Shown: piece by piece, positions 17,672 through 40,123 of the stretch
Layout of the letters: every line of letters starts with the position of its first letter
Numbering within the stretch: position 1 is the stretch's first letter
From: a virus
DNA length: 40,123 nt
IMG/VR virus record: IMGVR_UViG_3300046515_000275
Span: 1 to 40,123 of that record
Strand: one strand, 5' to 3'
The notes under the pieces: generated by a model
Told to the model about the DNA's origin: nothing
The model's database searches: none
Seen by the model: only the letters and a program-made list of their open reading frames with translations
Program-made: the position numbers and the translations under genes

Positions 17672-17672
17672 C

Positions 17673-21165: not shown

Positions 21166-21175
21166 GAGGCATCCC

Positions 21176-22285: not shown

Positions 22286-22287
22286 CC

Positions 22288-22946: not shown

Positions 22947-23242
22947 TGACCCTGCGCAACGCACAGAAACCCAAGCTGGAAACGCGCCTGGCCCTGATCG
23001 AGCAGCGCGTGAACGACCTGGTCGAGCGCCATGAAACTGTTCCTGGACGAGTGACCCGCCTGGAAGGCGAGTTCGAGCACATGGGGGCCCAACTGGCCGC
23101 GCTCAACGATGGCCAGCGCGAGCTGACCGCCACCGTGTCCGACATCGGTACCAAGGTCACCCGCATGCTCGCCGCCCTGACCGTGCTGGGCGTCGTCGCC
23201 CAGGCGCTCGGCCCGACCCTGTTCCGGATGCTGTTCCCATGA
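22946..23242 (+). CDS. holin candidate, single C-terminal TM segment
   Basis: A 98-residue protein starting at ATG 22946 (TGATG overlap with the previous stop; AAGG 9 bases upstream). The first two thirds form a charged coiled coil (RLALIEQRVNDLVERHE...LEGEFEHMGAQLAALNDGQRELTATVSDIG). The C-terminus is one hydrophobic segment (MLAALTVLGVVAQALGPTLF). The layout resembles XhlA-type lysis proteins. Its position directly before the endolysin makes a holin or holin partner likely. Confidence 0.68.
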   Translation: MTLRNAQKPKLETRLALIEQRVNDLVERHETVPGRVTRLEGEFEHMGAQLAALNDGQRELTATVSDIGTKVTRMLAALTVLGVVAQALGPTLFRMLFP

Positions 23243-24251: not shown

Positions 24252-24535
24252 CCGAACGCACCGAAATCACCCTGGACGTCGCTGGCCAAGACTTTGACTT
24301 CGTCATGGATGCGGCCCTGATGACGAAGTACATCAACAGCCTGACCCCGGCCAACAAGGTCGCCCCGGCCCACAACCTGCTGATGACCTCCGTGAACCAG
24401 GAGCAGAAAGCCAGCCTCAAGCCGCTGCTGGCCAACCCGATGACCGCCATCCAGATCGCCGGCGCGCTGATCGAGGAGTACTCGCCGACGGTTGAAGTCA
24501 CCGTAAAAAAGCGCTCGGCCACGCAGAGCGCCTAA
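24248..24535 (+). CDS. tail assembly chaperone, short form
   Basis: A 95-residue protein in the position of P2 gpE, just before the tape measure gene. It begins MTERTEITLDVAGQDFDFVMDAALMTKYINSLTPANKV and ends after the slippery site A AAA AAG at 24505-24511. Tail chaperones coat the tape measure during tail assembly and are usually made in two forms by frameshifting. The start overlaps the Rz stop (ATGA). The family assignment rests on position, size and the frameshift signal as much as on sequence. Confidence 0.8.
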   Translation: MTERTEITLDVAGQDFDFVMDAALMTKYINSLTPANKVAPAHNLLMTSVNQEQKASLKPLLANPMTAIQIAGALIEEYSPTVEVTVKKRSATQSA

Positions 24536-24702
24536 CCGAGGACGGTCTGGGCCAGCTGCTGGCCCTGGCCGACCACTGGCTACCTGGTGCTGATCGATCG
24601 CCCGAGTCCCTGGGCACAGCCAAATGGCTGGAGGACGAGCACTGGCGGCGAATGGAGATCGCCCTAGCCAACGGCATATCACGAGCTTTCAACGGTAACT
24701 GA
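24248..24702 (+). CDS. tail assembly chaperone, frameshifted long form
   Basis: A -1 shift at A AAA AAG (24505-24511) joins the first 88 codons to a frame that stays open for 63 more codons and ends at TGA 24700-24702, three bases before the tape measure ATG. The extension begins ALGHAERLTEDGLGQLLALADHWLPG and has normal protein composition, whereas otherwise these 170 bases would be noncoding in a tightly packed operon. This mirrors the E/E+E' pair of P2 and G/GT of lambda. The product is 151 residues. Confidence 0.8.
24505..24540 (+). promoter_or_regulatory. -1 programmed ribosomal frameshift signal
   Basis: The heptamer A AAA AAG lies in the right phase (codons GTA AAA AAG). Downstream, two alternative stems are visible: GCGCTC/GAGCGC (24511-24516 with 24526-24531) and CTCGG/CCGAG (24514-24518 with 24536-24540). 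The second leaves a short spacer after the slippery site, as stimulatory stems need. The zero-frame stop TAA is at 24533-24535. Confidence 0.8.
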
Positions 24703-24705
24703 CCC

Positions 24706-26643
24706 ATGAGCGCGAACGCTTCCAGCCGCCTGGACTTCATCCTGAGCCTGACCGACAAGGTCTCGGCGCCCTTGGCCAAGGTGACCAAGGGCTTCGACAA
24801 TCTGGCCACCCAGGGCGAGGCCAACATCAAGCAGATCGGTACCGGTGTCGCCGGCGTCTGGGGCGCCCTGACCGGGATCGAGGCGTCGATGGCTCCAGCG
24901 CTGGACGTGAACCGCGCCCTGGGCGACGTCCGTTCGCTCGGCGTGGCCGAGGATGCCCTGGCATCGCTCAACGCCCAGGCCCTCGACTTTTCGGTCTCCT
25001 ACGGCGGCAGCGCCGAATCCTTTGTTGCCTCCGCGTACAAGATCGAGGGCGCTATCAAAGGCCTGGCCGGCACCCAGCTGGCCACCTTTACCAACACCAG
25101 TGCCGTGCTGGCCAAGGCCACCAAGTCCGACCAGGACGTGATGAGCGAGTACGTCGGCACGCTCTACAACCTGCAGAAGCAACAGGCCGACGCCATGGGA
25201 AAAAGCCAGTGGGTCGAGAAGCTGGGCGGCCAGACCGCCCTGGCTGTGCAGCTGTTCCGCACCAGTGGCGAGCAGATGAAGGAAGGCTTCAAGGAAGCCG
25301 GGGCGATCGCCTCGGCGTCCGGCATCGACCTGGCCGAGCAGATGGCGGTGATCGGCAGCCTGTCCAGCACCATGGAAGGCGGCGACGCCGGCGGCCGCTA
25401 CAAGGCGTTCTTCGAGAACATCGGCAACGCCTCGGAAAAGCTGGGCCTCAAGTTCACCGACACCAACGGCAAGGTCATGCCGATGCTGGACATCATTGCC
25501 AAGCTGCAGGGTAAGTTCGGCGACCTGCGCAACGCTGCGGCCGATAGCAAGCTGGTCGAGGCGTTCGGTGGTGAAGGTGCCCAGGTGATCGGCGCGCTGG
25601 CCCAGGACACCGATCGACTGAGAGGTGGCATCGACCAACTGGGTAAGGTGCGAGGTCTGGAGCAGGCCGAAAAGATGGCAGCGGCCATGGTCGATCCGTG
25701 GCAGCAGTTCGGCGCCGCCGTGCAGGCACTTCGTATCGCCTTTGGCCAGGCCTTGATCCCGATGCTGCAACCGCTGATGGACAAGCTGGTAGGGATCGGC
25801 AAGACCATGACCAGGTGGACGCAACTGTTCCCCAACATCACCCGGGTAATGGGTATTGCCACGCTGGCCGTGCTCAGCATCACCACTGCTATCAGCGCTC
25901 TGACGGTGATCGTCGGCTTGAGCAAGATGGCCATGCTGGGCCTGAACGTGGTCTGGACCCTACTCACCTGGACGGGCTGGAAGAGCATCGCCATGTTCGT
26001 CGCCCATGCCGTCCAGGGCGCCCTGTTCATTGCGCGGATCCTCGGCATGGTGGCGTCGATCGCCGTGGCCAGGGCCTCGATGCTGATTTGGCAGGGAGCT
26101 ATCTGGCTGGTGAACGCGGCGCTGGCAGCCAACCCGGTCGGCCTGGTCGTCATAGGCGTGCTCGCCCTGGTGGCCGCTGTAGTCGCGGCTGTGGCGTACT
26201 GGGACCAGTGGACCACCGCCCTGACGAATACAGCAGCCTTCCAGTGGGTGATGGAGCAGCTGGGTCTGCTTAGCGCCTGGTTCAACACCATGGGCGGCTG
26301 GACAGGCATGGCCAAGGCCGCGTGGGAGGGAATCGTGGCCGTCTTCCGGTCGGCGCTGGACTCGCTCATCTCGATGCTGAACAAGATCCCCGGCGTAGAC
26401 ATCGACATGAAGCTGGGCAGCGTGCCAGACCTGCCCAGCGTCGGTGCCAATGCCGAGTACAAGCCGGTGGGCAGCCTGAGCCCGAACAAGGCCAACGCCG
26501 TGCCCGCCGGTGGCCTGATGACCAGCATCCAGAACACCCAGAACCAGAACAAAGGCACCCACGTTGAGAAGGTGGAGATTCACACCGGCAAGCAAATGAG
26601 CCCGCTGGAGCTGGAAAACATGATGGCGATGGCGGCCGGCTGA
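24706..26643 (+). CDS. tail tape measure protein
   Basis: A 645-residue tape measure protein that sets tail length and leaves with the DNA. The N-terminal part is rich in helix (SRLDFILSLTDKVSAPLAKVTKGF), and blocks such as ALDFSVSYGGSAESFVASAYKIEGAIKGLAGTQL are typical of the TP901/P2 type. Residues about 380-510 contain several long hydrophobic segments (for example MGIATLAVLSITTAISALTVIVGL), as usual. It directly follows the chaperone pair. Its TGA overlaps the next ATG. Confidence 0.93.
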   Translation: MSANASSRLDFILSLTDKVSAPLAKVTKGFDNLATQGEANIKQIGTGVAGVWGALTGIEASMAPALDVNRALGDVRSLGVAEDALASLNAQALDFSVSYGGSAESFVASAYKIEGAIKGLAGTQLATFTNTSAVLAKATKSDQDVMSEYVGTLYNLQKQQADAMGKSQWVEKLGGQTALAVQLFRTSGEQMKEGFKEAGAIASASGIDLAEQMAVIGSLSSTMEGGDAGGRYKAFFENIGNASEKLGLKFTDTNGKVMPMLDIIAKLQGKFGDLRNAAADSKLVEAFGGEGAQVIGALAQDTDRLRGGIDQLGKVRGLEQAEKMAAAMVDPWQQFGAAVQALRIAFGQALIPMLQPLMDKLVGIGKTMTRWTQLFPNITRVMGIATLAVLSITTAISALTVIVGLSKMAMLGLNVVWTLLTWTGWKSIAMFVAHAVQGALFIARILGMVASIAVARASMLIWQGAIWLVNAALAANPVGLVVIGVLALVAAVVAAVAYWDQWTTALTNTAAFQWVMEQLGLLSAWFNTMGGWTGMAKAAWEGIVAVFRSALDSLISMLNKIPGVDIDMKLGSVPDLPSVGANAEYKPVGSLSPNKANAVPAGGLMTSIQNTQNQNKGTHVEKVEIHTGKQMSPLELENMMAMAAG

Positions 26644-26960
26644 TGAGTCTCTACATCGATCTGCTCATCACCAACAACGACCTGACGCTGGACCCGTCCA
26701 ACCAGCCCGTGCTGGTGGACGATCGGGCCAGCATCGCCCAGGACATCGCCCACATGATCCGCGAGAGCGGCCTGCTGGTCACGCTTATGGCCGAGCGTGA
26801 CCGCTTCCGCCGTACCGACTGCATCAAGCAGCTGGAGCTGCTGGTGGAGGAGGACGAACGCCTTGTACCGGGCACCGTGGAAATCACTGAAACCGGCAGC
26901 GGCCAGTATCGCGTCGCTGCCAAGACCGTGGCCTTTGGGGCCGTCGAGGTAGCGCTGTGA
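26643..26960 (+). CDS. DUF2590-family baseplate-region protein
   Basis: A 105-residue protein resembling DUF2590, found between tape measure and baseplate J in HP1/K139-type phages. It contains DLLITNNDLTLDPSNQPVLVDDRASIAQDIAHMIRESGLLVTLMAERD, similar in idea to gpW/gp25-like baseplate wedge proteins (reading early order W, J, I). A wedge role is therefore likely, though inferred from position. It overlaps neighbours on both sides by 1-4 bases. Confidence 0.8.
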   Translation: MSLYIDLLITNNDLTLDPSNQPVLVDDRASIAQDIAHMIRESGLLVTLMAERDRFRRTDCIKQLELLVEEDERLVPGTVEITETGSGQYRVAAKTVAFGAVEVAL

Positions 26961-28132
26961 GTGACGTCGATTTCAAGAAGGCCCTGCAGGACGCCGGCGT
27001 CCCTACGACCGAGGCGGGCCTGCGCGCAGCCTGGGAGAAAGAGGTGGCAGCCCAGGGCAGCAAGCTGAGCAATACCAGTGCCTGGTCGCCGTTCTGGCGC
27101 CTGGTCACGGCCCTAGTGACAAAGCCGGTGCTGTGGCTGATCGACTTCATCGTGGCCACCGTGCTGCCCAACTTCTTCGTCAAGACGGCCACCGGCAGCT
27201 GGCTGGACATGCTGGCCTGGGCGGTAAACGTCACGCGCAAGGCCTCGACCAAAGCCCAGGGCCACTTGCTGTTCACCCGCAGCGGCGTAGCCGGCACCCT
27301 GGAGATCCCCGCCGGCGTGCGTGTGCAGTCTGTGGCTATTAACGGCAACGTCTACGTCCTGGTCACCACTGCCGCGACCCAGTTTATCGACGGCGACGCT
27401 CAGGTCCTGGTTCCGGTCGAGGCCACCGAGGCCGGTAGCGGCTACAACCTCGCCCCTGGTTACTATTCGATCCTGCCCGAGCCGATCGCCGGCGTGATTC
27501 AGGTGGTGAACGCTGATGGCTGGCTGAGCCAGCCCGGGGCGGATCAGGAGCATGATGACGACCTGCGCCTACGTACTCGCAACCAGTTCAGCGCCGTCAA
27601 CCAGTGGCACACCGACGCCGTGTACCGTGCCATGGTCGCCGCGTTCCCGGGTGTCGAGCCGGATGGTGTGTACTTCGAGCACAACGCGCCCCGTGGTCCG
27701 GGCAGCGCCAATGCCTTCGTGCTGTTCCAGGCGGGTTCGCCGGCGGACAGCTACCTGGGATTGATCAACAGCCATATCCGGGACCAGGGCAACCATGGCC
27801 ATGGGGATGACCTCCTGGTGGCGGAAATGCCAGCGACCCAGCACGTCATCCGAGTGACAGTGTGGTTGACACCGCAGGTCGGCGCCGAACGCCAGGACCA
27901 GCTGCTGACCGACATCGAGCTGTTCATCAGGGCAGCGTTCCGAGAAAGCACGGACAGCGACTTCCAGCCCACCCGGACCTATCCGCAATCACGGTTCTCG
28001 TTCAGCCGGCTCGGTGAGGAGCTGCATGAACAGTTTTCCGGTATTGAATCCCTGGACTTCGAGAACACAGACATCATTTCTCAGCTGAACATCCCGCGCC
28101 TCGATGGCGTCCAGGTGGTGCTGGGTGAATAA
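26957..28132 (+). CDS. J: baseplate assembly protein J family
   Basis: A 391-residue baseplate wedge protein (P2 gpJ / Mu gp47 type), starting at GTG 26957. Family features are ATGSWLDMLAWAVNVTRKAS, LFTRSGVAGTLEIPAGVRVQS and the EATEAGSGYNLAPGYYSIL block, followed by DDDLRLRTRNQF. It is longer than P2 gpJ (302), closer to the HP1/K139-type form. It overlaps the DUF2590 gene by 4 bases and gene I by 8. Confidence 0.9.
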   Translation: MSDVDFKKALQDAGVPTTEAGLRAAWEKEVAAQGSKLSNTSAWSPFWRLVTALVTKPVLWLIDFIVATVLPNFFVKTATGSWLDMLAWAVNVTRKASTKAQGHLLFTRSGVAGTLEIPAGVRVQSVAINGNVYVLVTTAATQFIDGDAQVLVPVEATEAGSGYNLAPGYYSILPEPIAGVIQVVNADGWLSQPGADQEHDDDLRLRTRNQFSAVNQWHTDAVYRAMVAAFPGVEPDGVYFEHNAPRGPGSANAFVLFQAGSPADSYLGLINSHIRDQGNHGHGDDLLVAEMPATQHVIRVTVWLTPQVGAERQDQLLTDIELFIRAAFRESTDSDFQPTRTYPQSRFSFSRLGEELHEQFSGIESLDFENTDIISQLNIPRLDGVQVVLGE

Positions 28133-28712
28133 GCTCAAGCTTCCTTTCTGGCTGGAAGGCGTCGAGCTTTCCAAGCTCCGCGACGCGGCGCAGTCCTGGT
28201 GGACAAAGGTAGAGCAGTGGGTGAGCTGGCCGCTGCTGCAGCTGGACGCCGAAACCTGCCACCTAGCGATCCTGGATTTGCTCGCCTGGCAGCGTGACAT
28301 CCAGCGCTTCCAGGGCGAGCCAGAGAATCTCTACCGCTTACGGGTGAAGTACGCCTTCATCAACGCGGTTGACGCTGGCAGCGTGGCCGGCACCGTCCGG
28401 ATCTTCCAGCGCTTGGGTGTTGGCTACCTCGAAATTGAGGAGCGCATCGATGGCGTGGATTGGGATGTGATCCGCTTGAACCTTTCCGACAGTCAGCTGA
28501 GTTCCAACCCCGTACTGCTGCGCGTGCTGATCCAGCAATACGGCCGCACCTGCCGGCGCTACGAGTTCACAACTATCACTCCGGTAACCCTGGGCATGCG
28601 CATCGCCCACTTCCATGACGACCAGGAAACCCTTGTCGCCGTCCTGGACGACACCGCCGATCGCCTCGTCGTTATCAACGAACTGGCCGTCGTGACCACC
28701 GAGAACATCTAG
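28125..28712 (+). CDS. I: tail protein I family (baseplate)
   Basis: A 195-residue baseplate protein in the gpI position. The start is taken at GTG 28125 (VNKLKLPFWLEG), 8 bases before the end of gene J; the frame is open from 28104. Typical of this tail protein family are LDLLAWQRDIQRFQGEPENLYRLRVKYAFINAVDAGSVAGTVRIFQRLG. It precedes the tail fibre gene by 8 bases, as gpI precedes gpH in P2. Confidence 0.84.
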   Translation: MNKLKLPFWLEGVELSKLRDAAQSWWTKVEQWVSWPLLQLDAETCHLAILDLLAWQRDIQRFQGEPENLYRLRVKYAFINAVDAGSVAGTVRIFQRLGVGYLEIEERIDGVDWDVIRLNLSDSQLSSNPVLLRVLIQQYGRTCRRYEFTTITPVTLGMRIAHFHDDQETLVAVLDDTADRLVVINELAVVTTENI

Positions 28713-28720
28713 GAGACCCC

Positions 28721-30322
28721 ATGGGAGCAAGCATCACCCTCGCTGGCCAGTCGCTGATCGCTCAGAAGCAGGCTACAAAACAGGTCCTGAACGTTGTGCG
28801 CTTCATTTTCGCCAACGTGCCAAACCTGAACCCTAACGCCCCGGTGAACCGTGGGGCCGGCAAGCCGCCGGTCAGCCAGCAGGTCTACACCGTGGCAGTG
28901 GATCGGGCGGGTTATGTGAACCCGAACCAGGTGATCTACAGCGTCATGGTCGATTCCAGCGTGGGTGACTGGGACTTCAACTGGATCGGCCTGGAAACCG
29001 TGGAGAACGTTCTGCTGGCCGTGGCCTACGTGCCGCTGCAGCAGAAGCGCAAGAACGTCCCACCTCTGCAGATCGGCAACAACATCACCCGCAACTTCCT
29101 GGTGGAATACGACGGCGCCCAGCAGATCACCGGCATCACCGTAGACGCGAGCACTTGGCAGCACGATTTCAGCGTGCGCCTGGCGGGCATCGATCGCCGC
29201 GAGAAGCTGAGCAACCGCGACATCTACGGTCGAGTCTGCTTCCTGGACAGCGGCCTGCAGATGGAACAGAGCTTTGGTCTGTACCAGGTCAAGGCGGGTG
29301 TGGCCTACATCGAAGGGGTGCGCCTGGCACTCAGCGAGCCCGTCCAGGTGCAACTGCCTGCGCTGCCAGCTAAGGCCTGGCTGGACGTGGCACTGCGTCG
29401 CCAGGGTAATGACGTCGGCGCTCAATGGACTGTCGCCTTCGGCAGCTCCAAAACGGACTACCAGGACGCCGACGGCACCGAGCATTACCTGATCGAGCTT
29501 GCCAGCGTGGCGGCGTCGGGTGATATCACTGACCTGCGCAAGTCGGAGCCGATCGCTACATCCGTGATCGAGCACATGGCGGCCCGGAAAGGAGACTACG
29601 AATTCCTGCGCGCCCGGGCTACGACCAAGGAAGACGTGGAGCTGGGCAACCTGCCCAATTCCAAATCGGACAACCCGAACGACGTCAGTAGCGAGATCCT
29701 GGCCACCACCAAAGCGCTCCAGAATGTCCGCGAGCAGATCGAGGGCAACCTGGTTGGCATGCTGGCCATGTTTGACCAGGATACGCCGCCAGATGGCTGG
29801 CTGCGTGCCAACGGCGCTGCTGTGTCGCGCACCGCGTTCGCCCGGCTCTTTGCAAAGATCGGTACCCGATACGGTGCCGGCGACGGGGTAACCACGTTCA
29901 ACGTCCAAGACGTCCGGGGTCGCTTCCTGCGCGCCCTGGACGACGGCAAGGGCCTCGACCCGAGCCGAATCCGGGGCAGCCTGCAGGCCGATGAATATAA
30001 GTCGCACAACCACCCCGCGACATCGGCCGCCGCCGGCGGCCACACGCCCACCGCCACAGCTACCGCAGCCGGCGAGCACGTCCACCAGGTCAAAGAAGGG
30101 CAGGTGCTCGGCCAGGTCACCACCGGCGAGGTGCTGACCTCGGGGGACGATCTGACAACGGGCATCAACGGTTACTCAACCACCAGCAGCGCCGGCAGCC
30201 ATACCCACCCCATCACCGTGGCCCCCGTCGCCGACCACCTCCACATCATCACCGTGAACGCGACCGGGGGCAGCGAAACGCGCCCGCTGAACATCGCTTT
30301 CCCGGTCTACGTCAAATACTAA
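28721..30322 (+). CDS. H: tail fibre protein (gpH-like, collar domain)
   Basis: A 533-residue tail fibre. The N-terminal part (LAGQSLIAQKQATKQVLNVVRFIFANVPNLNPNAPVNRG) is the baseplate-attachment domain of gpH-like fibres (DUF3751 type). The C-terminal third is a phage tail collar domain (GWLRANGAAVSRTAFARLFAKIGTRYGAGDGVTTFNVQDVRGRFLRALD), ending in His-rich strands (SHNHPATS, SHTHPITV, DHLHIITV) and RPLNIAFPVYVKY. It probably binds the host receptor. A dedicated assembly protein gene follows after 10 bases. Confidence 0.9.
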   Translation: MGASITLAGQSLIAQKQATKQVLNVVRFIFANVPNLNPNAPVNRGAGKPPVSQQVYTVAVDRAGYVNPNQVIYSVMVDSSVGDWDFNWIGLETVENVLLAVAYVPLQQKRKNVPPLQIGNNITRNFLVEYDGAQQITGITVDASTWQHDFSVRLAGIDRREKLSNRDIYGRVCFLDSGLQMEQSFGLYQVKAGVAYIEGVRLALSEPVQVQLPALPAKAWLDVALRRQGNDVGAQWTVAFGSSKTDYQDADGTEHYLIELASVAASGDITDLRKSEPIATSVIEHMAARKGDYEFLRARATTKEDVELGNLPNSKSDNPNDVSSEILATTKALQNVREQIEGNLVGMLAMFDQDTPPDGWLRANGAAVSRTAFARLFAKIGTRYGAGDGVTTFNVQDVRGRFLRALDDGKGLDPSRIRGSLQADEYKSHNHPATSAAAGGHTPTATATAAGEHVHQVKEGQVLGQVTTGEVLTSGDDLTTGINGYSTTSSAGSHTHPITVAPVADHLHIITVNATGGSETRPLNIAFPVYVKY

Positions 30323-30332
30323 GGGCCACGCC

Positions 30333-31043
30333 ATGCAGACCAAGATCGTGTTCCAGACCGATCACCTGGGCATTTTCGTCGGGGAGGCGATTGCCGACCC
30401 TTCACCGCTTGAAGACGGCGTCTGGCTGATCCCCGGCGGCTGCGTCGAGCTGGCCCCACCGACCATTCCAGAGCACAAGGCCGCCCACTGGGATGGCCAG
30501 CGCTGGCAGCTGATCGACTCCTATCTGGGCTTGACCGCCTACAACATCCAGACCCGCGAGCCCGTGGCGATCGATCGGCACGGCCAACTGCCGGCGGGCT
30601 TCACCCTGGAGCCACCAGGACCAGGGCAGATCTGGAAAGACGGCGACTGGATCGATGACGTGCCGGCAGCTGTGGAGCAGCTGTATCAGGCGCAGGTCGC
30701 GACCATCGACAACGCCTGTACCCGGGAGATCACCGGCGGTTTCTGGTCCAAGGCCCTGGGTGTTCGGCAGTGCTACAGCAGCGCCCTGGACGACCAGCAG
30801 AACCTGAACGGCGCCGCTGCTCTTGCCACTGTGGTGGATTATCCCTGCACCGACGAGGCCGGATTGAAGGCGTTCCGCACCCACACCGCCGCGCAGCTGC
30901 GCCAGGTGGCGGACGAATTCACAGTGTTCAAGCTGCAGCGCCTGCAGCACTCGTATGCACTCAAGGAGCGCCTGCAGCAGGCCCGCGAAGCCAAGGACCT
31001 GGACGCCCTGGGCGCGGTGACCTGGGAGGCCGACGGGCAATGA
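30333..31043 (+). CDS. tail fibre assembly protein
   Basis: A 236-residue protein in the position of a tail fibre chaperone (P2 gpG / Tfa). The N-terminal half (YLGLTAYNIQTREPVAIDRHGQLPAGFTLEPPGPGQIWKDGDWIDD) has the typical 'D..T G....... P PG ..W DG.W' look of such proteins. The C-terminal half is a helical DUF4376-like domain (CTREITGGFWSKALGVRQCYSSALDDQQNL). It likely folds or trimerises the preceding fibre. Confidence 0.85.
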   Translation: MQTKIVFQTDHLGIFVGEAIADPSPLEDGVWLIPGGCVELAPPTIPEHKAAHWDGQRWQLIDSYLGLTAYNIQTREPVAIDRHGQLPAGFTLEPPGPGQIWKDGDWIDDVPAAVEQLYQAQVATIDNACTREITGGFWSKALGVRQCYSSALDDQQNLNGAAALATVVDYPCTDEAGLKAFRTHTAAQLRQVADEFTVFKLQRLQHSYALKERLQQAREAKDLDALGAVTWEADGQ

Positions 31044-31960
31044 CCTGGACCCCCGTCACCATGCGCTGGCCCAGCGAATCGACCAACTGGCTGTCCGCCC
31101 TGGAATCGGCTAAAGACCTGGCAGCTAGCGAGCTGGCGAGCACCGGCACGCGCCTGGCTGCGCTACAGGATATGGCCACCACGGCGCCGAACCCCGTTGG
31201 CGAGATGGCCGCAGCTGCAGTGGCCGCAGGCCGGCAAGGCCTGCAGGCAGCCCTGGGTGAGGTGCCCAAGTGCCTGGTGGTGACACCGTTCCAAAGTGGA
31301 GTTGGCCAAGGTCGTGGTCTGCAGCGCTATCTGTCGGCGCCGAACATGCTCAACCACCTGGGGAGCAAGCTGGGCGACGTCACGGACCAGAACAGCCCCG
31401 CAGGCGAGCAATACGCGCTGGTGGTGATGTTCTTGGGCACCCGGTACGACCATTTTGCCTCGACCTTGGGGCGATTCAATGCCGTGCTGCCGCTGCCCGA
31501 CCTGCAGCGTGCGCAGAACCGCGCCGGGCGCTTGTTCGAGCTGGAGTCGGTGAAGTGGGAGCTGCCGAGCGCCGGCGCGCTGCCGCGCTGGGGCGAGCTG
31601 CCCTTGGAACGGGCCACCATCACCAAGGCCGCGAGCCAGGCCATGGCGGGCCAGCTGGCCGCGCTGGAGAGCTTCGCCGCCAGTTCGCCCATGACTGACC
31701 TGCAGGCGCTGGCCACCCGCAAGGCTGAGCGCAGCGCCGCCAAGGCCAAGCAGCTCGATGATCTCAAGGCCCTGTTCGACGGCGCAACGTCAGATACCAC
31801 CATCACTGCCCGCCTGATAGGCCCCGGCAACGCGGCCGAGCTGCGCCGGCAGCTGCTGGCAGGTAACGCACCAGGTCACGAATGGCCGATCTCCGCCGGC
31901 GTCATGCTTGTGGGTTCGCTGCCGGGCCTGAGCTTCGTGCGCGAACTGGTGGGCCTATGA
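31040..31960 (+). CDS. conserved tail-region protein of unknown function
   Basis: A 306-residue protein starting MTWTPVTMRWPSESTNWLSALESAKDL at ATG 31040 (ATGA overlap with the assembly gene). The N-terminal and C-terminal parts are Ala-rich helices. The middle (LVVTPFQSGVGQGRGLQRYLSAPNMLNHLG...ALVVMFLGTRYDHFASTLGRFNAVLPLPDLQRA) looks globular. Genes at this position occur in HP1/K139-type phages, which suggests a baseplate or tail role, but I do not recognise a family. Confidence 0.7.
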   Translation: MTWTPVTMRWPSESTNWLSALESAKDLAASELASTGTRLAALQDMATTAPNPVGEMAAAAVAAGRQGLQAALGEVPKCLVVTPFQSGVGQGRGLQRYLSAPNMLNHLGSKLGDVTDQNSPAGEQYALVVMFLGTRYDHFASTLGRFNAVLPLPDLQRAQNRAGRLFELESVKWELPSAGALPRWGELPLERATITKAASQAMAGQLAALESFAASSPMTDLQALATRKAERSAAKAKQLDDLKALFDGATSDTTITARLIGPGNAAELRRQLLAGNAPGHEWPISAGVMLVGSLPGLSFVRELVGL

Positions 31961-32514
31961 CTCTGCTCCTGGACGGCGAAAAGGTCCGTGGCCGCAGCAT
32001 GAAGGTCACCGGAGACATGCGGATAGAGAGCGGCGACATGTCTGGGCAGACCAGCAACACCGATACCGCGCACAAGGGGTTCAAGCCCAAAACGCTGACC
32101 GTCACGCTGATGATCCCTTTCGTGGATGCCGAGCACCTGCGCTCACTCATGCGCCTGGCCGAGGCAACGGAAAGCGGGGGCCAGCTCAAGACCTACCGCG
32201 TGGTCAACGACACGGCCACCGCGATCGGCATGCGCCAGGTGCAGTTCTCTGACGGCGTCAGCGCCCGGGAAGACGACTCGCTGCGCGGCTGGCGTATCCA
32301 GTTCACCTTGACCGAAAAGCTGTCGAACCCCGAGCGAGTGGAAAAGCGCAGGGCTGATAAAGCGGTCAAGACCCAGAGCGCCCCGGGGCAAGGCGTCACC
32401 GGTACTGGCGGCAGCGGCAACAGTGGCGCCGATGACAGCGGCACCGGCCAAGGCCTGACCGGGTTCGAGAGCACCCTGAAAAAGCTGGATGACTGGCTGG
32501 GGAGCACATCGTGA
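31957..32514 (+). CDS. baseplate complex protein (unknown family)
   Basis: A 185-residue protein beginning MTLLLDGEKVRGRSMKVTGDMRIESGDMSGQTSNTDTAHKGFKPKTLTVTLMIPF. It has beta-rich character up to about residue 130 and ends in a Gly/Ser/Thr-rich linker (TGTGGSGNSGADDSGTGQGLTG) and a short helix. Its place between the previous unknown and the hub gene, with ATGA/GTGA overlaps on both sides, points to a baseplate hub component. The start at 31957 is preferred over the open frame from 31882. Confidence 0.7.
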   Translation: MTLLLDGEKVRGRSMKVTGDMRIESGDMSGQTSNTDTAHKGFKPKTLTVTLMIPFVDAEHLRSLMRLAEATESGGQLKTYRVVNDTATAIGMRQVQFSDGVSAREDDSLRGWRIQFTLTEKLSNPERVEKRRADKAVKTQSAPGQGVTGTGGSGNSGADDSGTGQGLTGFESTLKKLDDWLGSTS

Positions 32515-33215
32515 AGCTCCATAAAGTCTTGCGCATCGCCGGCATCGAGCACGACCTGGTCAAAGATGATGTCCGCTTGGAGCTGGCCACCCCCGGCCGC
32601 GCCCAGTTCACCATCAAATCCACCGCGCCAGTGTCGGGCCTGGTCACGCTCGACATCGGCTACAACGCGCAGCCGCTGCAGCGCCACTTCATCGGGTATG
32701 TGGAGCGGTCCACCTCGGTTAACCAAGTGGAGCAGGTGCTGTACTGCCGAGAGCTCGCCGCGATCCTGGCCAAGCCCCTGCCGATGAACCTGCGCCACGC
32801 CCATCTGCGCACGGTACTGGCCGCGATCAGTGACCAGACCGGTCTTCGCTTCCGTGTGCCGGCACAGGCCTACGCGGCGGTAAAGGCGCCGTTCTTTTAC
32901 AGCCTGGCCTCGGGCTTCCAGGCCATGGACAGCCTGGCCCGGGTTTTCAGCATCCCCGACTTCATCTGGCAGCAGCAGGGCGATGGCGAGGTGTTCGTGG
33001 GTAGCTGGCAGCACAGCTTCTTCGGCCAGCGCTCGCCGCTGCAGCTGCCGATCGAGCTTTTCAACAACTACCAGGGCAACCAGAGCGCCGTGATCGCGGC
33101 GCTGCCTGGCCTGCGTCCTGGTGCAACCATCAACCAAGGCGAGCGAGTCACCTCCGTGGCCCTCGTCGGTACCGAAATGGCGATCAAATGGAAGACGCAA
33201 TCCGGCGCTGTGTAG
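32511..33215 (+). CDS. D: baseplate hub protein (gpD-like)
   Basis: A 234-residue protein in the role of P2 gpD, starting at GTG 32511. It has an N-terminal beta domain (IEHDLVKDDVRLELATPGRAQFTIKS...GLVTLDIGYNAQPLQRHFIGYVERS), then LAAILAKPLPMNLRHAHLRTVLAAISDQTGLRFRVPAQ and FSIPDFIWQQQGDGEVFVGSW, consistent with a hub fold. It is shorter than P2 gpD (387), as in HP1/K139-type phages. It overlaps the spike gene by 28 bases. Confidence 0.75.
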   Translation: MKLHKVLRIAGIEHDLVKDDVRLELATPGRAQFTIKSTAPVSGLVTLDIGYNAQPLQRHFIGYVERSTSVNQVEQVLYCRELAAILAKPLPMNLRHAHLRTVLAAISDQTGLRFRVPAQAYAAVKAPFFYSLASGFQAMDSLARVFSIPDFIWQQQGDGEVFVGSWQHSFFGQRSPLQLPIELFNNYQGNQSAVIAALPGLRPGATINQGERVTSVALVGTEMAIKWKTQSGAV

Positions 33216-34138
33216 AGCGCATGTTCCCGGAGCTGAGCGGCGGCTACCATTTGCCGCGCATGGCCCGGGTTGTCGGTGTGGCCGACGCGCCCGCCGGCGC
33301 AACGATCTGCGACGACTTCCGGCCGCGCTTTGCGGTCGACCTGCAGGTCCTGGACGAGAACGGCGAGCCGGACGAGGCCCTGCCGACGCTGGCCGGTGTG
33401 CCGCTACCCGTGCCCACGGGCGGTGATGAAATGGGCTTTTTCAGCTTCCCCGAGGAAGGCACGACCGTGGTGGTCGGCTTCACCCAGGGGCTGCCACACA
33501 AACCCTTTATCCAGTGCATCCTGCCCCACGGTCTGTCCTTGCCCCGCGTGCCCAAAGGCGACCAGGTCTGGCAGCACAGCGAGGCCTCGCAACAGCGCGT
33601 CGAGGCGGACGGCAGCTGGACACGCCAGACCGACGGCGGGATCAACGACAAATCGACCGATCGCCAGGTGGAAAGCCTGACCAACGCCGAGCGCTACCAG
33701 AGCGACACCCGCAGCATAGAAGACCATTCCACCGAGTCCGTGGGCGGGATCAAGACGATCGAGGCGCTGGGCGCGCTCAAGTTGCTTTCCGGCGGCGCGA
33801 CCAACCTGGCGTCAGTGGACGACCTCAACCTAGCCACCGGCCGGGACCTGAACCAGGTGGTCGCCCAGAAGATGAATCTGGCCGTGGGCGGAATGCTCCT
33901 GGAGCGCGTCCTGGGTGCCCGGAAAAGCATCGCCAAGACAACCTGGCTGGGCTCCGAGTCCGTAAACGTCTTGCAGATCCTGTGCGATCTGATCGACCTG
34001 GTCATGCAGATGAACACCGAGATCGCCGGACACAAGCATGGCCCAAGCCCACCGCCCGACAACGCAGCTGCCTTCACCGCTCACAGCACTGAAAGTCTTC
34101 TTCTCAATGGGCAACTGAAGCCCATCACCGGTAAATGA
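33188..34138 (+). CDS. baseplate spike protein (gpV/gp45-like)
   Basis: A 316-residue protein with an N-terminal OB-like part (ARVVGVADAPAGATICDDFRPRFAVDLQVLDENGEPDEALPTLAGVPLPVPTGGDEMGFFSFPEEGTTVVVGFTQGLPHKPFIQCIL), then a repetitive beta-helix stretch (TDRQVESLTNAERYQSDTRSIEDHSTESVGGIKTIEALGALKLLSGG). The tip has GHKHGPSPPP, which recalls the His-x-His metal site at the end of P2 gpV and Mu gp45. It would form the membrane-piercing tip. The ATG at 33188 lies within the hub gene. Confidence 0.8.
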   Translation: MEDAIRRCVERMFPELSGGYHLPRMARVVGVADAPAGATICDDFRPRFAVDLQVLDENGEPDEALPTLAGVPLPVPTGGDEMGFFSFPEEGTTVVVGFTQGLPHKPFIQCILPHGLSLPRVPKGDQVWQHSEASQQRVEADGSWTRQTDGGINDKSTDRQVESLTNAERYQSDTRSIEDHSTESVGGIKTIEALGALKLLSGGATNLASVDDLNLATGRDLNQVVAQKMNLAVGGMLLERVLGARKSIAKTTWLGSESVNVLQILCDLIDLVMQMNTEIAGHKHGPSPPPDNAAAFTAHSTESLLLNGQLKPITGK

Positions 34139-34139: not shown

Positions 34140-36578
34140 ATGGAACTGAAAAACTTTTTCGCTCAAGACGATGAAGGGCACGTCCTGCCTGGGGCCGACT
34201 GCTTCGTGTACCTGCGCGGCACTGAAACCCAAGCGCCAGGAGTAGTCAGCGCCGGCGGCGTGGCGCTCACTAACCCGTTTACGGCAGCTAACGACGGTCT
34301 GATCCAGATCGCCGCGCCCAATGGCTTGTACGACCTGCGTGTGAAGAAGGGGGAGCGGGATCGCCGGATCCGCGTCCAGTTCAACGATGTGACCGATACG
34401 CTCCTGCAGGCCCAGCGGGCAGCTGAGCGTGCAGAGCAGGCCAGCTTGGTTACCGAGGCATCCAAAAACATCAAGCCGACGACGGCTGATGGCCTGCGTG
34501 ACACCAACGACGGGGAATATTTCAGCGTACCGAGCGCCTCGGGCGCATCGTCCTTGACGCTCTATCGCAACACTGCAGGAGTGGCCGCCGAGCAAACCAG
34601 CCTGCCAAGCGGTGCTGCCGACACTCGGACGATCAACAGAAGCAAGGCCTATCCGCTGCGAGCGATGACCCGTGGCAAAGTGCTGTCGCCGGCAAGTCTG
34701 CAGTGGAACAAGCTGCTCTTGGACGTCCAGGTGGTGGGTGAAGCTTCACTGCTGGAGGGTAAATTCTTCCGGGTAGGTTACTTCCAAAACGAGGCGAGCA
34801 TCGCCGGTGTGGCGGCTCACGGGATTGTCCTCGAAGAGTTCGACGCCGCGACCTACGCGGCAACAGGCATAGCCACTAAAATTCACAACTACACCGACGC
34901 ACCGGCACCGATCGTGCGTACTGACGGCGTCCAGACCTTCACCATCACGCCTCAGCAGCGTCCTGGGCTGAAGTTCATCATCACCATTGATGCCGCAGAA
35001 CTGAGTGCCGCCGGCACACCTCTAAACGCCCTCAATATCGAAACAAATGGCCCGTACTCCTGGATTATCGATCCAGCCTGCTACGTGGCAATCGCTGGGC
35101 TGGGCGACATGCTGGCCATGAACAAAGGCCGTGTACTGCCTTTGAAAGCAAAGGTGCGCGGCGGTAAATCAAGTGCCGCGCCCACGACCTTCATGAACGT
35201 GCTGCTGGACATCGAGGTAAACGGCGCACGCCCAGGCAAGTACTACCGCGTGGCCCACTTCAAAAACGGGACCCAACTGCTGGCAGGACCGGACGACGGC
35301 TGGATTATTGAAGAAATCGACGCGGTTAACTACGAGACGGCAGCTAACCCGCAGCTGACGGTCATCAACTATACCGACGCCTCTACTCCGGTACTGCCGC
35401 GTGGCGGTGTCCAGACCGTTAACCTGGTCAGCTCGGTAGTGCCGGGGCTGGTCATCAAGATCACGCTGGATACCGATGCTCTACCCGCTTACGGCAGCTA
35501 CATCGGTGCCAACGCGGATTCCCAGGCCGGTTACAGCTACATCATCGACCCAAGCCGCTATCGCTTGCGCTCGGACTCATCGGCTGCCGATCACCGTCCT
35601 ATTGAATGGGTGATGACTGCAGCAGGTGAATTCATTATGGCCTGGGCGAGCAACACCAGGTGCTATCGGCTGACCTGGACCCTGAACGGGATTAACAAGA
35701 TCCCGAACATCCGGACGGTTGAGTCTGCACCTGGTAACTCCCTGGCCGACGCGGTCTGGCAGCACATGAGCACTACCGGCAGTGACTGGTTGCCACCCAT
35801 GCAACTGATGGCGGCGAACAATGGTGACGGTGGTCTCGTTGCATTTACTGGCGGGGCTCATGGTTCCGACGGCGGATCGGGCGGCGCCCCAACAGCCACC
35901 AACAAGCTCTGGCAAATCCTGGCGGACGGGCTACCGGTAACCCAGGGCAGTGGCCGAGCCCAGCTCATCACCATGCAGATCATCAACCACCTGCAGGCCT
36001 ATAACACCAAAGTTTCGGGGCGCGAAGTCGGCCGCCAGGCGTTCAGCGTCGGAATCGTCCCAGGCTGTATGGAAGTGGTCGCGGCCTTTACCGCCCTTGA
36101 GGACGTCCTGGTGCGCAGGGACTACGGACTCCAGCTCATCAGCCAAGGTTTCCAAGGTACCCAGCTCGTCCTCGGCGGCGTGGATACCCAGCGGACTGAG
36201 TTCATTCCGGCCGACGGCCTGGGCTCCGGCACCAAAGGTCAGGCCCCTAATGCCTGGGCTGTGGTGCTGCAGCACCCAACCAACGGGCAGATGGCTCTCT
36301 GGATGGACAAGGAGTACGGCGCCGGTGATGGATCGCACTGCATCGACAGCGAATTCCTGGTCAGAGGTGCAAATACCGGAAAATGGTACTTGGGGGCGGT
36401 ACTCAACCCTGGCGGGGAGCACTTCGCAGCCGGCACCGGCTACCGGTACCGGGCTGGCCTGTCCTGGCAGTCTGCCGACATCACGGCCAATGGCTACGAC
36501 TCAGTCGTGACGATGCGGCGCAAGGGTATGGAGACGTTCTGCTATGCTCTTTCTGACGGTAAATCGCTAATCCTGTAG
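34140..36578 (+). CDS. second tail fibre/tailspike-like protein with duplicated module
   Basis: An 812-residue protein, the last gene of the late operon. The N-terminus (MELKNFFAQDDEGHVLPGADCFVYLRGTETQAPGVVSAGGVALTNPFTAANDGLIQIAAPNGLYDLRVKKGERDRRIRVQFNDV) is a virion-binding domain common to Pseudomonas tailspikes, followed by a helical linker (about 85-110). Residues 168-315 and 329-474 are two copies of one beta-rich module. The C-terminal 330 residues are Gly/Thr/Ser-rich and beta-strand-like (FIPADGLGSGTKGQ, MWMDKEYGAGDGSH type blocks). No depolymerase catalytic signature is obvious. It is likely a receptor- or polysaccharide-binding spike. Confidence 0.8.
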   Translation: MELKNFFAQDDEGHVLPGADCFVYLRGTETQAPGVVSAGGVALTNPFTAANDGLIQIAAPNGLYDLRVKKGERDRRIRVQFNDVTDTLLQAQRAAERAEQASLVTEASKNIKPTTADGLRDTNDGEYFSVPSASGASSLTLYRNTAGVAAEQTSLPSGAADTRTINRSKAYPLRAMTRGKVLSPASLQWNKLLLDVQVVGEASLLEGKFFRVGYFQNEASIAGVAAHGIVLEEFDAATYAATGIATKIHNYTDAPAPIVRTDGVQTFTITPQQRPGLKFIITIDAAELSAAGTPLNALNIETNGPYSWIIDPACYVAIAGLGDMLAMNKGRVLPLKAKVRGGKSSAAPTTFMNVLLDIEVNGARPGKYYRVAHFKNGTQLLAGPDDGWIIEEIDAVNYETAANPQLTVINYTDASTPVLPRGGVQTVNLVSSVVPGLVIKITLDTDALPAYGSYIGANADSQAGYSYIIDPSRYRLRSDSSAADHRPIEWVMTAAGEFIMAWASNTRCYRLTWTLNGINKIPNIRTVESAPGNSLADAVWQHMSTTGSDWLPPMQLMAANNGDGGLVAFTGGAHGSDGGSGGAPTATNKLWQILADGLPVTQGSGRAQLITMQIINHLQAYNTKVSGREVGRQAFSVGIVPGCMEVVAAFTALEDVLVRRDYGLQLISQGFQGTQLVLGGVDTQRTEFIPADGLGSGTKGQAPNAWAVVLQHPTNGQMALWMDKEYGAGDGSHCIDSEFLVRGANTGKWYLGAVLNPGGEHFAAGTGYRYRAGLSWQSADITANGYDSVVTMRRKGMETFCYALSDGKSLIL
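34641..35561 (+). repeat. duplicated protein module in spike gene
   Basis: The two copies are encoded by 34641-35084 and 35124-35561. Shared protein features in order are LLLDV/LLLDI, KFFRVGYF/KYYRVAHF, HGIVLEEFDA/DGWIIEEIDA, NYTDA/NYTDA, GVQTFTI/GVQTVNL, PGLKFIITIDA/PGLVIKITLDT and YSWIIDPACY/YSYIIDPSRY. The DNA itself has diverged, so the duplication is old rather than a recent copy. Confidence 0.85.
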
Positions 36579-36585
36579 GCCCTTT

Positions 36586-36622
36586 CTGAGAAGCCTGGAA
36601 ACATCAGGCTTCTCAGATTTTC
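36586..36622 (+). terminator. late operon terminator
   Basis: CTGAGAAGCCTG (36586-36597) and its perfect complement (36605-36616) with a 7-base loop, followed by ATTTTC. It is placed 8 bases after the stop of the last late gene and marks the end of the late transcript. Downstream, a foreign-looking gene converges on it from the other strand. Confidence 0.85.
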
Positions 36623-36635: not shown

Positions 36636-38162
36636 CTAAGGGTTTGCACGATGGAATGGTTCTAGGACTTTGTCTGTAAGATTGATGATAGGAACCGGGC
36701 CTTGATAACTGTTGGCGCGCTTTTGAACCTCGGCCACCATCACCTTTCGACTTTCTGGTTCATCCATGCAATAACTTCTAAATATTTGCCTACGGTCCAC
36801 CCCGTTGGCTTTTCCAAGAAAAACTATGATCGAGACAAGCAGTACATCCCCAAGCTTAAAGAAGTCTGGTACTAAGACCTCGGTTGCCCCGGCTTCATAG
36901 CCATTCGCTGCTGGATTGATTTGTTTTTCATCCCCCTCGATCAGGTGTAAGTACTCCTGAATTATCGCAGATCTCGTAAAAAGTTCATTGGGGGAGATGG
37001 TTATATCGTCGTAATAACCATATTCACCCTGGACCTTCTGAACGTCTTTCACGATCTTGAGCGCAGTAGCAAAGTCACCCCCCATCCCCTCTATACTAAT
37101 TCTGGCAGTTAGTTTTCGCCCCGCAGCCTCCAATGTCAGCTCGACCCCGCCAGGGTGCTGCATCATCGCCAAAAGCTGATAGAACTTCAGTATTTCCTTT
37201 AAAGTCGATTGATCTTTATCTTTTTTGTGGATCCAGAACGTGATTGCTTTCCCATCAGGTCTAATGTCGATGGTTATTCTTTCAGCGCGCATCCTCATGA
37301 GTCTATATTGATCTGGCACCCAGTCAGCTAGAGCACCCCGGGATACATCTACAACCCATTCTATGCTCGAGCCTCGACTCAAACTCTTAAAGACCATTTT
37401 GCCGAGTTCCTTCGGCCCCTCATCCATGATCGATATCTGAGCAGTTTCTCTTTGCTCGTCAGGTAGCTCATCGCGGATTCCAAATCTGGTTTGGAAAGCT
37501 TTGAAATCCTTGACCGCAATTGTGGAATGGTCACCGATTACCATTCCGACAAAACGCTTCATATCTTCTGCGTCAACCTTGAAAGTAAAGCTTGTAGCTC
37601 CGGGCCCATACCCTACCGACGAGATATGCTGCTGCTTATTGTTCACATATTCGGCTTGAGATCCACCAATACACGCAACTATCGCCGCTTTTAATCCATC
37701 CCCATTCAGCGGCTCAATCAGCGGTGCGCTCGAAAATTTTAGGCTCATTTTTTTCTCGTTGAGCTTTACATCTTTGTTCTTGGTTGTTTCTTTTCGAATT
37801 CTTTCAAGTATCCTTTCTCGGTGCGAGTCATCAATATGGATTAAGTACGCAGCTTTGGGGGCGTGCCCGTGCCCCATATCAACTAACAAATAGAATGCCG
37901 GCAAAGTTGTAGTGGCCATTGCATGCAGATTTGAAAGTTCAATTGAAATACTTTTTGGTCCTCCGTCCGTAGTTTTAACCTGAACCTTGCATTCGTAAGC
38001 CGACTTATGAAGTCCTGCTGCTGTTGATAAGTCATAACCACTGGACATTTCGAAAAAAAGATCCCAGCCGAACATGTCAATTACTGCTTTGTTCGCTGTA
38101 ATACCACCTAGACTACACCACGCCTGTACGAAAGCTTCACCTGCATTTCCCTTGTTTCTCAC
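36636..38162 (-). CDS. cargo gene, PD-(D/E)XK/DUF4365-like N-terminus; defence candidate
   Basis: A 508-residue protein with a GTG start at 38162, where GGGGAAGG lies just upstream. A TTG at 38207 is in frame but lacks a ribosome site. The N-terminus resembles DUF4365-type nucleases of the PD-(D/E)XK fold: GNAGEAFVQAW (E9), FGWDLFFE (D34) and YECKVQVKTT (E57-x-K59 and Q61-x-K63). The remaining 400 residues, with segments such as KAITFWIHKKDKDQSTLKEILKFYQLLAMMQHPGGVELTLEA, match nothing I know. It is AT-richer than the phage genes, on the opposite strand to the late operon, and lies at the variable end of a P2-like genome, a known place for antiphage genes. A single-gene defence or exclusion function is inferred, not shown. 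Confidence 0.65.
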   Translation of the reverse strand: MRNKGNAGEAFVQAWCSLGGITANKAVIDMFGWDLFFEMSSGYDLSTAAGLHKSAYECKVQVKTTDGGPKSISIELSNLHAMATTTLPAFYLLVDMGHGHAPKAAYLIHIDDSHRERILERIRKETTKNKDVKLNEKKMSLKFSSAPLIEPLNGDGLKAAIVACIGGSQAEYVNNKQQHISSVGYGPGATSFTFKVDAEDMKRFVGMVIGDHSTIAVKDFKAFQTRFGIRDELPDEQRETAQISIMDEGPKELGKMVFKSLSRGSSIEWVVDVSRGALADWVPDQYRLMRMRAERITIDIRPDGKAITFWIHKKDKDQSTLKEILKFYQLLAMMQHPGGVELTLEAAGRKLTARISIEGMGGDFATALKIVKDVQKVQGEYGYYDDITISPNELFTRSAIIQEYLHLIEGDEKQINPAANGYEAGATEVLVPDFFKLGDVLLVSIIVFLGKANGVDRRQIFRSYCMDEPESRKVMVAEVQKRANSYQGPVPIINLTDKVLEPFHRANP

Positions 38163-38611
38163 GATGCCTTCCCCGGCGATAAGATCTCGAGGTCGCAGAA
38201 TATCCAAAAAACGCTAGCGGGGAAAAAACGGCAGGGGAAAAGCACTTATCCCCCTCCCGCCGACGCGCTTTTCGTCCTGAAATCGTGCAAACCGGCCGGG
38301 TGGTGCAAACCATGCCGCAGGCCGCGCCGTATCTGGACCCGCGCAGGGCGGTGGCAATTGCACGCTGTGAAAGAAAATGAAAGGTTGTGCAACCGCGTGC
38401 GGCTTAATGGGCGCTGTGCGGGGCGAGGGCGCCCATGGCTGGAGCCCGCGGAATCCGTGAGGGAGCGGCGAAAAAATACACGATTTCAGCGATTTTCATT
38501 TTCGGACACCGTGAATTTCAAGCGTGCACAGCGGACCAGGAGCAGGGCGCCGATCCGGGTGGAACCCCCGGCGGGTGGGGGCTCAGCGATTCACCGGCAT
38601 TGCAAAGCGTT
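38163..38611. other. noncoding stretch with repeated GTGCAA motifs
   Basis: About 450 bases without a convincing gene between two minus-strand genes. It holds the cos candidate, the right inverted repeat, and several GTGCAA motifs: GTGCAAACC at 38285-38293 and 38303-38311, and GGTTG-TG-CAACC near 38391. The overlapping plus-strand frames here (38358-38834, 38435-39010) have poor composition and no ribosome site. This may be the packaging initiation region. Confidence 0.45.
38230..38247 (+). other. candidate cos site
   Basis: GGCAGGGGAAAAGCACTT resembles the right part of the P2 cohesive end sequence (…GCGGGGAAAGCAC) as I remember it. In HP1-type genomes cos lies between the tail genes and the attachment site, which is where this is. 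Repeated GTGCAA motifs nearby could be terminase binding sites. By-eye similarity only. Confidence 0.3.
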
Positions 38612-38971
38612 TCACTCGTCGGTACCGGTCGCCAGCCACATGTGTGGAAGATCGCTCAGGTTCTTCAGGCGCTCAAATTCTTTGGCCACCACCGGGATCA
38701 GGATGTGCTCGAGGCGGGCTTTGAAGCTCACTGCCTGGTCTTCGGTCAGGCGCTTCACGGTCCCAGTACGCGCACTGGCACAGGACACGTTCTTCGGGTG
38801 GATGCCGATCCCGTCCAGGCTGCCATGTATGTAGCCATCCAGGTACTCGCGGCGCTTGAACAGGACCGCGCTTTCCGGTGCTTCCTGGTAGTCCCAGTGC
38901 ACCTCCCAGGCCTCGCCATTCTTTATCAGTTCGATTTTCGGGAGGGCTGCTTGGGTGGCTGCTTTGCGCAT
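38612..38971 (-). CDS. hypothetical protein near prophage end
   Basis: A 119-residue protein with balanced composition: an N-terminal basic segment, a beta-like stretch (KIELIKNGEAWEVHWDY), then SAVLFKRREYLDGYIHGSLDGIGIHPKNVSCA and a C-terminal helix (DQAVSFKARLEHILIPVVAKEFERLKNLSD). The sense frame is more protein-like than the overlapping plus-strand frames. I do not recognise the family. GATGAG lies shortly before the ATG. It sits between the cos candidate and the TCTGACA repeat cluster, so it may be controlled by that region. Confidence 0.6.
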   Translation of the reverse strand: MRKAATQAALPKIELIKNGEAWEVHWDYQEAPESAVLFKRREYLDGYIHGSLDGIGIHPKNVSCASARTGTVKRLTEDQAVSFKARLEHILIPVVAKEFERLKNLSDLPHMWLATGTDE

Positions 38972-39466: not shown

Positions 39467-40102
39467 CTACTCACCGGCATTCGACGGCCGCTGTGACTCG
39501 TCCCCAGCGCCGGCTGGCTCCTGCTTTTGAGAGCGTTCATCTAGCACCAACTGGGTGGCATCTTCCAACACCTCTATGAGCCAGGCACATGACGCAGACA
39601 TAGAGACAGCGTCATCGAATGCCACCTGCCTGTCCGTTAAATGTGCCGCGTCATTCCGAACAGCTGCTAGCCGCAGGAACGTCGACTCGGTGAGGTCATT
39701 GATGTGTCCGCTGTTTTTGAGAGTCTTCAGCTTGTATTGGTAGCTGGAGTACCGAGGAGCGAACTCCCAGCCCAAGGTCACTATCAGATTATTGAGCGCT
39801 GACTCCACTTCGAACCAGGAGTGCATGATTGCTGCTCGGGGGGAGATTGAGGCCAGCTGGGCTGTTTCTGCTTGAAGAACTGGTGCGACGGGGGCTCCCG
39901 TTTTCACAACACTGGAGGAAAGGTCCTCCTCAACAGCTTTCAGCTTTTCCTCCAGATCGATCTCGAGGTCGCCGTATTTCACGCTCCGGATCTTGGGTAG
40001 CAGCTGCAATACATGCTTCTTCAAGGCAAAGACCACGATGACGATTGCAATTGGCCAGGCCACCGAGGAGACCACCGCTGCTATGAACTGCTTCCAATCC
40101 AT
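39467..40102 (-). CDS. membrane-anchored HEPN-like (DUF4145-like) protein
   Basis: A 211-residue protein with start ATG at 40102 preceded by GGGGGTG; the frame opens to the window edge by a TTG. Residues about 6-28 are one transmembrane helix (AAVVSSVAWPIAIVIVVFAL), followed by a basic stretch, so the rest is probably cytoplasmic. After a linker (about 60-85) comes a helical domain (IMHSWFEVESALNNLIVTLG ... FLRLAAVRNDAAHL). RNDAAH fits the RX4H motif of HEPN domains, as also seen in DUF4145-like proteins. Single-TM plus HEPN-like layouts occur in phage exclusion and abortive systems, but host housekeeping roles are possible too. The C-terminus is Gln/Ser-rich. Its upstream neighbour is outside the window. 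Confidence 0.7.
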   Translation of the reverse strand: MDWKQFIAAVVSSVAWPIAIVIVVFALKKHVLQLLPKIRSVKYGDLEIDLEEKLKAVEEDLSSSVVKTGAPVAPVLQAETAQLASISPRAAIMHSWFEVESALNNLIVTLGWEFAPRYSSYQYKLKTLKNSGHINDLTESTFLRLAAVRNDAAHLTDRQVAFDDAVSMSASCAWLIEVLEDATQLVLDERSQKQEPAGAGDESQRPSNAGE

Positions 40103-40123
40103 GGTGACACCCCCGAGAACCAA

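Follow-up and report, generated by a model that had tools for sequence, protein, structure and literature searches.

The slot of a phi3-like prophage

What does the AT-rich gene do that lies between the late genes of a P2-like prophage and the end of the phage genome? The window, that is, the whole stretch of DNA analysed, is a virus record of 40,123 bases, and the gene occupies the interval between its late-operon terminator and a cos-like site, hereafter the slot (Table 1). The answer that we consider likely is that the gene encodes a solitary, Argonaute-independent DREN nuclease, kept as prophage defence cargo that guards lysogens against superinfection.

By PHROG matches and DNA similarity, the carrier phage belongs with two Peduoviridae of Pseudomonas, the phages phi3 and UFJF_PfPro. 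As judged from these comparisons it is a phi3-like P2-type Pseudomonas prophage, which agrees with the P2-like assignment of a preliminary description of this DNA. The cos-like site was so named because it matches the UFJF_PfPro terminus in all 24 positions and because its G-rich strand, GGCGGGAGGGGGATAAGTGC, is similar to GGTGAGGCGGGGTCCAAC, the cos of the P2-like phage phiRSA1 (PMC5694545). Past this site the window runs on into the left end of the UFJF_PfPro record.

The cargo gene starts with GTG at position 38162, behind a strong Shine-Dalgarno sequence (GGGGAAGG) and about 75 bp from the cos-like site. The mechanically called ORF begins 45 bp earlier, with a TTG. In L165, a phage copy with 56% identity, an ATG stands at the equivalent position, after the same GGGGAAGG. 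The gene is a real and correctly placed ORF and not a chance one, since three other phages carry relatives, 56, 44 and 34% identical, in the corresponding position and the family has about 50 more distant members. Its GC content is 45.8%, against 63.9% for the late operon (17601-34138), and the two converge over the terminator, so that the gene is AT-rich, opposite to the late operon and beyond its terminator, as had been described. A Pfam match to the trehalase Ca-binding family (12 residues, E 0.0013) was attributed to chance; no other family member has it.

Upstream of the gene, about 50 bp from the cos-like site, lies a conserved block that also precedes the gene in L165, L166 and L167. 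Each of the four phage copies of the gene has it, but just one other surveyed slot does, and it may be a promoter carried along with the cargo. The idea that it encodes a short leader peptide was dropped, since the frame in which the block stands to the start codon varies between copies.

Table 1. Position and strand of the features of the slot and its flanks (coordinates of the window).
Feature	Position	Strand	Basis
Baseplate protein gene, survey anchor	33188..34138	+	phrog_4011, E 2e-132
Tail-fibre-type gene, last late gene before the slot	34140..36578	+	Position; N-terminal ELKNFF similarity to the fibre genes found there in relatives
Late-operon terminator, slot boundary	36585..36617	+	14-pair stem, then T run
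Cargo gene (508 aa, GTG start)	36636..38162	-	ORF, Shine-Dalgarno sequence, homologues
C-terminal region without known fold, presumed sensor/regulator, codons 178-508	36639..37631	-	Model m5f761f3b0b4c; conservation
Predicted PD-(D/E)XK nuclease domain, DUF4365/DREN kind, codons 1-165	37668..38162	-	HHalign; fold match; conservation
Shine-Dalgarno sequence GGGGAAGG of the cargo gene	38167..38174	-	Sequence; identical bases in L165
5' block TTTTTTGGATATTCTGC / TTTTTGGATATNCTG, possible promoter element	38195..38211	-	Common to four phage copies (including L165)
Conserved cos-like site, slot boundary	38238..38261	.	24/24 to right terminus of UFJF_PfPro; 0-3 mismatches in 57 related phages
119-aa phage gene, far side of cos	38612..38971	-	phrog_9349 and phrog_16042; 94-97% identical in closest phages

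Farther beyond cos, at 39467-40123 on the minus strand, the window carries a gene for a 218-aa DUF4145/HEPN-like protein. Related genes stand there in UFJF_PfPro, L151, L144 and L135, and this is a second conserved accessory position.

An N-terminal nuclease domain of the DUF4365/DREN kind

The preliminary description had seen a DUF4365/PD-(D/E)XK-like N-terminus in the cargo protein. Pfam gave no DUF4365 match for the window protein itself and matched DUF4365 in 15 of 30 family members (best E 5e-4). By HHalign, the family N-terminus matched 23 DUF4365 proteins with a probability of 96.8 and E 2.3e-10. An AlphaFold2 model built on 30 family members had a mean pLDDT of 78.8, and among solved structures it came closest to the DREN-APAZ chains of SPARDA, with Foldseek E values of 4e-5 to 1e-3. 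SPARDA DREN-APAZ (DUF4365-APAZ) is the effector of short prokaryotic Argonautes and acts on invading DNA (PMC12205087). The predicted N-terminal domain aligned with SPARDA DREN at Z 10.6 over 129 residues (3.4 A), which bears out the proposed N-terminus. Hjc resolvases, with Z of 9-10 (best 10.1 over 111 residues), tied with DREN, and the fold alone does not give the function.

Conservation was counted over 52 non-redundant members. In the 51 sequences that reach the site, D34 and K63 were each present 51 times, that is, invariant where present, and E9 and Q61, each absent once, 50 times. The DREN active site of NbaSPARDA consists of D41, Q60 and K62 (PMC12205087), and the inactive mutant of TmuRE was made by changing the equivalent residues, Q62 and K64 (PMC10810196). 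The active site is thus, on alignment, D34...Q61-x-K63 with E9, as in SPARDA DREN. The nuclease residues listed earlier were therefore partly right: D34 and Q61-x-K63 stand on family conservation and on their NbaSPARDA and TmuRE counterparts, and E9 is kept as well. A catalytic E57-x-K59 was rejected, as E57 occurs in 26 and K59 in 28 of the 52 members, about half. We are highly confident of the nuclease fold and active site of this domain; it would be expected to act as a metal-dependent nuclease.

The C-terminal region

Of the 400 C-terminal residues said to match nothing known, the unmatched part shrinks to about 330, because the stretch that resembles a nuclease reaches about residue 165. 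Folded alone, the C-terminal region reached pLDDT 77.1 and pTM 0.70. Foldseek found nothing for this model at E below 0.001, its Z scores did not exceed 3.8, and a viral-library fold search gave nothing helpful. The whole-protein fold search placed the entire protein in no structural or metabolic family. Weak C-terminal fold matches included RNase H-like proteins (EndoV, UvrC, NurA) over the last ~90 residues, with Foldseek probabilities of 0.5-0.7. This lead was dropped because D439, the sole acidic position counted, is not conserved (17 of 52 members).

Aligned by HHalign with the C-termini of five DUF4365 proteins of 440-450 residues, one of them a verified SPARDA chain, the region had a probability of 0.1, with no APAZ similarity by sequence. 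The nuclease domain is therefore shared with SPARDA, and APAZ is not found by sequence. In Foldseek comparisons of the whole model with SPARDA chains the alignments were long, with an rmsd above 20 A.

Five residues, Y172, K176, G184, R226 and F227, are the same in every one of the 52 members. Compared with the three other phage copies, the C-terminal region is 47, 35 and 25% identical, against 70, 64 and 51% for the nuclease domain. The C-terminal half diverges faster than the nuclease half, the pattern expected of a constant effector with a changing sensor. Judged by this divergence, the chances that the C-terminal region is a sensor are about even.

Neighbours of the family

No Argonaute or other fixed partner was found beside the gene in the slots of the window, L080 and L115 or at 46 loci of the family, where no neighbour family was common to more than four. 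The closer relatives stand alone and in differing surroundings, the chromosomal ones mostly among ordinary genes. Of the 82 genes next to them, a few match PADLOC models (for example AbiTii, DrmC and several PDC single-gene candidates), which is a raw count. The members of a distant set, at about 16-17% identity, lie directly behind differing defence genes. These are Tiamat TmtA and a NERD-UvrD helicase at L040, an SMC-like relative of LmuB (Lamassu-like) with PD-Lambda-3_B at L041 and, by homology, at L042, an AddAB-like pair at L044 and L046, and an ABC-3C-type protein at L039. The distant family gene looks as if it were the fixed anchor of a defence hotspot.

As these distant relatives form the 3' end of defence operons with several genes, the cargo protein could be an effector or accessory subunit of a multi-gene system, its partner coming from the host or from a neighbouring operon. 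We regard this as improbable, although it is the strongest of the alternatives: the operon partners vary from locus to locus, no neighbour family is common to more than four of the 46 loci, as stated above, and the slots of the window, L080 and L115 hold no other cargo gene. The solitary nuclease is preferred, and because no operon partner is constant between loci the protein probably works alone.

The distant members from rhizobia and Pseudomonas (L039-L048, around positions 7000-8500) often lie beside a cassette resembling imuA-imuB-dnaE2.

A cos-adjacent slot for exchangeable cargo

To learn what lies at the same position in related phages, 58 slots between the baseplate gene and the cos-like motif were surveyed, with the baseplate protein as anchor. 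In 57 related viral contigs the motif recurred with 0-3 mismatches, 0.8-6.2 kb beyond the anchor, and what lies between the late genes and cos varied from phage to phage. The cargo gene family was present in three of the 58 slots (window, L080 and L115) and is thus not conserved with late functions. In a further phage, L165, the closest relative of the cargo gene lies at about the same distance from cos.

The L077 slot reads by sequence as a PtuB/PtuA (Septu) pair, and the PADLOC models for PtuA and PtuB match it. Other PADLOC matches among the 64 slot cargo proteins were to AbiLi, PD-T4-2_A, RmrA, PDC-M11A, PDC-M45A/C and PDC-S45. The slot of phi3 holds HicAB and that of UFJF_PfPro a glycosyltransferase, the genes of two slots resemble acyltransferases by sequence, and a UmuC-like gene is also among the cargo. 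The slot beside cos is a place of exchangeable cargo and rich in defence genes, a richness that is descriptive, taken from PADLOC matches. The variable phage end with exchangeable cargo, proposed beforehand, is thereby borne out.

Validated anti-phage genes are known beside cos in P2-like phages and P4 satellites (PMC9122126); in P2 itself they stand between gpA and gpQ. The likeness to that hotspot lies in single cargo genes, a variable slot beside cos and a P2-type phage. In contrast to P2, cos and slot are found here beyond the tail-fibre gene, on the opposite side of the structural genes. The comparison with old and tin of P2, made in the preliminary description, was apt for the cargo slot but not for the old/tin neighbourhood itself; the place is a cos-adjacent counterpart on a differently arranged map, and the old and tin proteins are unrelated in architecture to the cargo protein. 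As phi3-like phages have a cos-adjacent slot although their cos lies elsewhere on the map than in P2, the hotspot, the comparison suggests, follows cos and not particular neighbour genes. The cos-adjacent slot of phi3-like phages is therefore a simple place to seek further systems.

The position beside cos, together with the close Z scores of Hjc (10.1) and DREN (10.6), might also point to a nuclease for the phage's own life cycle, acting in recombination, in Holliday-junction resolution or as a help at cos. This is very unlikely, as the other 55 of the 58 phages with the same cos lack the family and carry unrelated genes in its place, solitary copies exist in chromosomes and plasmids without a surrounding phage, and the profile homology is to DUF4365.

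Spread and mobility of the family

Backbone and cargo have diverged to different degrees. Between L165 and the window, the baseplate protein is 94% and the 119-aa neighbour 96% identical, against 56% for the cargo protein; for L080 the values are 78, 94 and 34%. With cargo identity so far below backbone identity, the gene moves as cargo, and the exchangeable status claimed for it holds on this count as well as on its rarity in the slots. A family member was found in nine of 399 sampled Pseudomonas species, and the family occurs sporadically across Proteobacteria and in at least one cyanobacterium. A tblastn search of 50,697 phage records found no similar protein.

Relatives are common on plasmids and integrative elements, and SPARDA too acts on invading DNA (PMC12205087), so the target could be plasmids, other mobile elements or competing prophages and not infecting phages. 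The carrier, however, is a phage, and the validated P2/P4 genes of such a slot act on phages (PMC9122126), which leaves this target as unlikely as a life-cycle role. Least likely of all is that the slot picked up a useless passenger gene that is now decaying. Several chromosomal relatives that are truncated or split (L028, L035 and L175/L179) speak for this; against it, the four phage copies are all intact, have every active-site residue and, at 34-56% identity, still have a ribosome-binding site or 5' block in common.

In a Pseudomonas chromosome (L180, 6171-9300), a family copy has its start some 80 bp away from a cos-like site that carries three mismatches, beside a DUF4145-like gene, and the three adjoin an att-like repeat. 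This repeat returns about 22 kb farther on (L187, to about 16700) and encloses, besides an integrase and a primase-like gene, apparently SIR2-like proteins; ARAGORN found no tRNA at the att. Another copy, of 31% GC, lies at 9992-11569 among the structural genes of L168, a 72.8-kb viral contig of 48% GC without such a cos.

A predicted single-protein defence nuclease

A defence role against phages, quite likely in our judgement, is argued for by the DUF4365 homology, DREN fold, kept active site and defence-rich slot as in P2 and P4 (PMC9122126). It is also argued for by the difference between cargo and backbone identity, the rarity of the family (9/399) and the distant relatives beside Tiamat, PD-Lambda-3, Lamassu-like and ABC-3C genes. 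Counted against it were the non-defensive genes of the slot (glycosyltransferase, acyltransferases, UmuC-like), the ordinary surroundings of most close chromosomal relatives and the 16-17% identity at which the link to the distant relatives is made. The computed basis of the solitary nuclease reading consists of nuclease-domain homology, active-site conservation, cargo status, lack of a fixed partner and faster C-terminal divergence; nuclease activity, expression in the lysogen, trigger and outcome are what we infer.

According to this proposal, the C-terminal ~330 residues would hold the DREN nuclease silent within one chain. A superinfecting phage would be sensed by this region and the nuclease released, and the metal-dependent N-terminal domain (E9, D34, Q61, K63) would then cut nucleic acid. 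Either the incoming genome would be destroyed or the infected cell would be stopped through collateral cleavage, the latter being a tentative suggestion. Such gating can be likened to the control of DREN by APAZ-Argonaute in SPARDA, here without Argonaute.

With SPARDA DREN-APAZ the cargo protein has in common the N-terminal DUF4365/DREN domain, the D...Q-x-K site and a two-part build with the nuclease first. Unlike SPARDA, it has no Argonaute partner and is found as prophage cargo, and its ~330 C-terminal residues show no APAZ similarity by sequence profile. Membership in SPARDA was rejected because Argonaute and APAZ sequence similarity are both missing. The PADLOC candidate PDC-M02A matched residues 4-68 at E 0.0017, below any useful threshold, and two PDC-M02A models each matched three of 30 family members; the model, of 169 positions, spans only the nuclease part of the cargo protein. 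Archaeal Hjc has the PD-(D/E)XK fold in common but is about 120 residues long and lacks the C-terminal region.

In the literature consulted that names DUF4365, no description of the present family was found, and DUF4365 appears in short-Argonaute systems or in passing. DUF4365/DREN nucleases figure there mainly as effectors of Argonaute-guided SPARDA. It is an even bet that the cargo protein represents a new family of immune nucleases that work as single proteins and without Argonaute, in which DREN is joined to an undescribed, fast-diversifying C-terminal sensor with an invariant R226-F227 motif, and which travels by way of the cos-adjacent slot of P2-type Pseudomonas phages. If so, a DREN nuclease with the same active site can couple to a non-Argonaute sensor with a different C-terminus, and a compact single-gene system is added to the anti-phage repertoire.

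The left end of the window

At the other end of the window, positions 1-2547 of the minus strand hold an AT-rich gene, possibly a second one for defence; its 848-aa product has an AAA-type P-loop and partly matches the PADLOC candidate PDC-M26A (E 6e-18). An Rfam radC RNA (3426-3560, minus strand) lies beside an arm-type tyrosine integrase gene (3775-5163, minus strand), followed by a second, different integrase gene (5439-6437, plus strand). The left end of the window may thus join two integrated elements.
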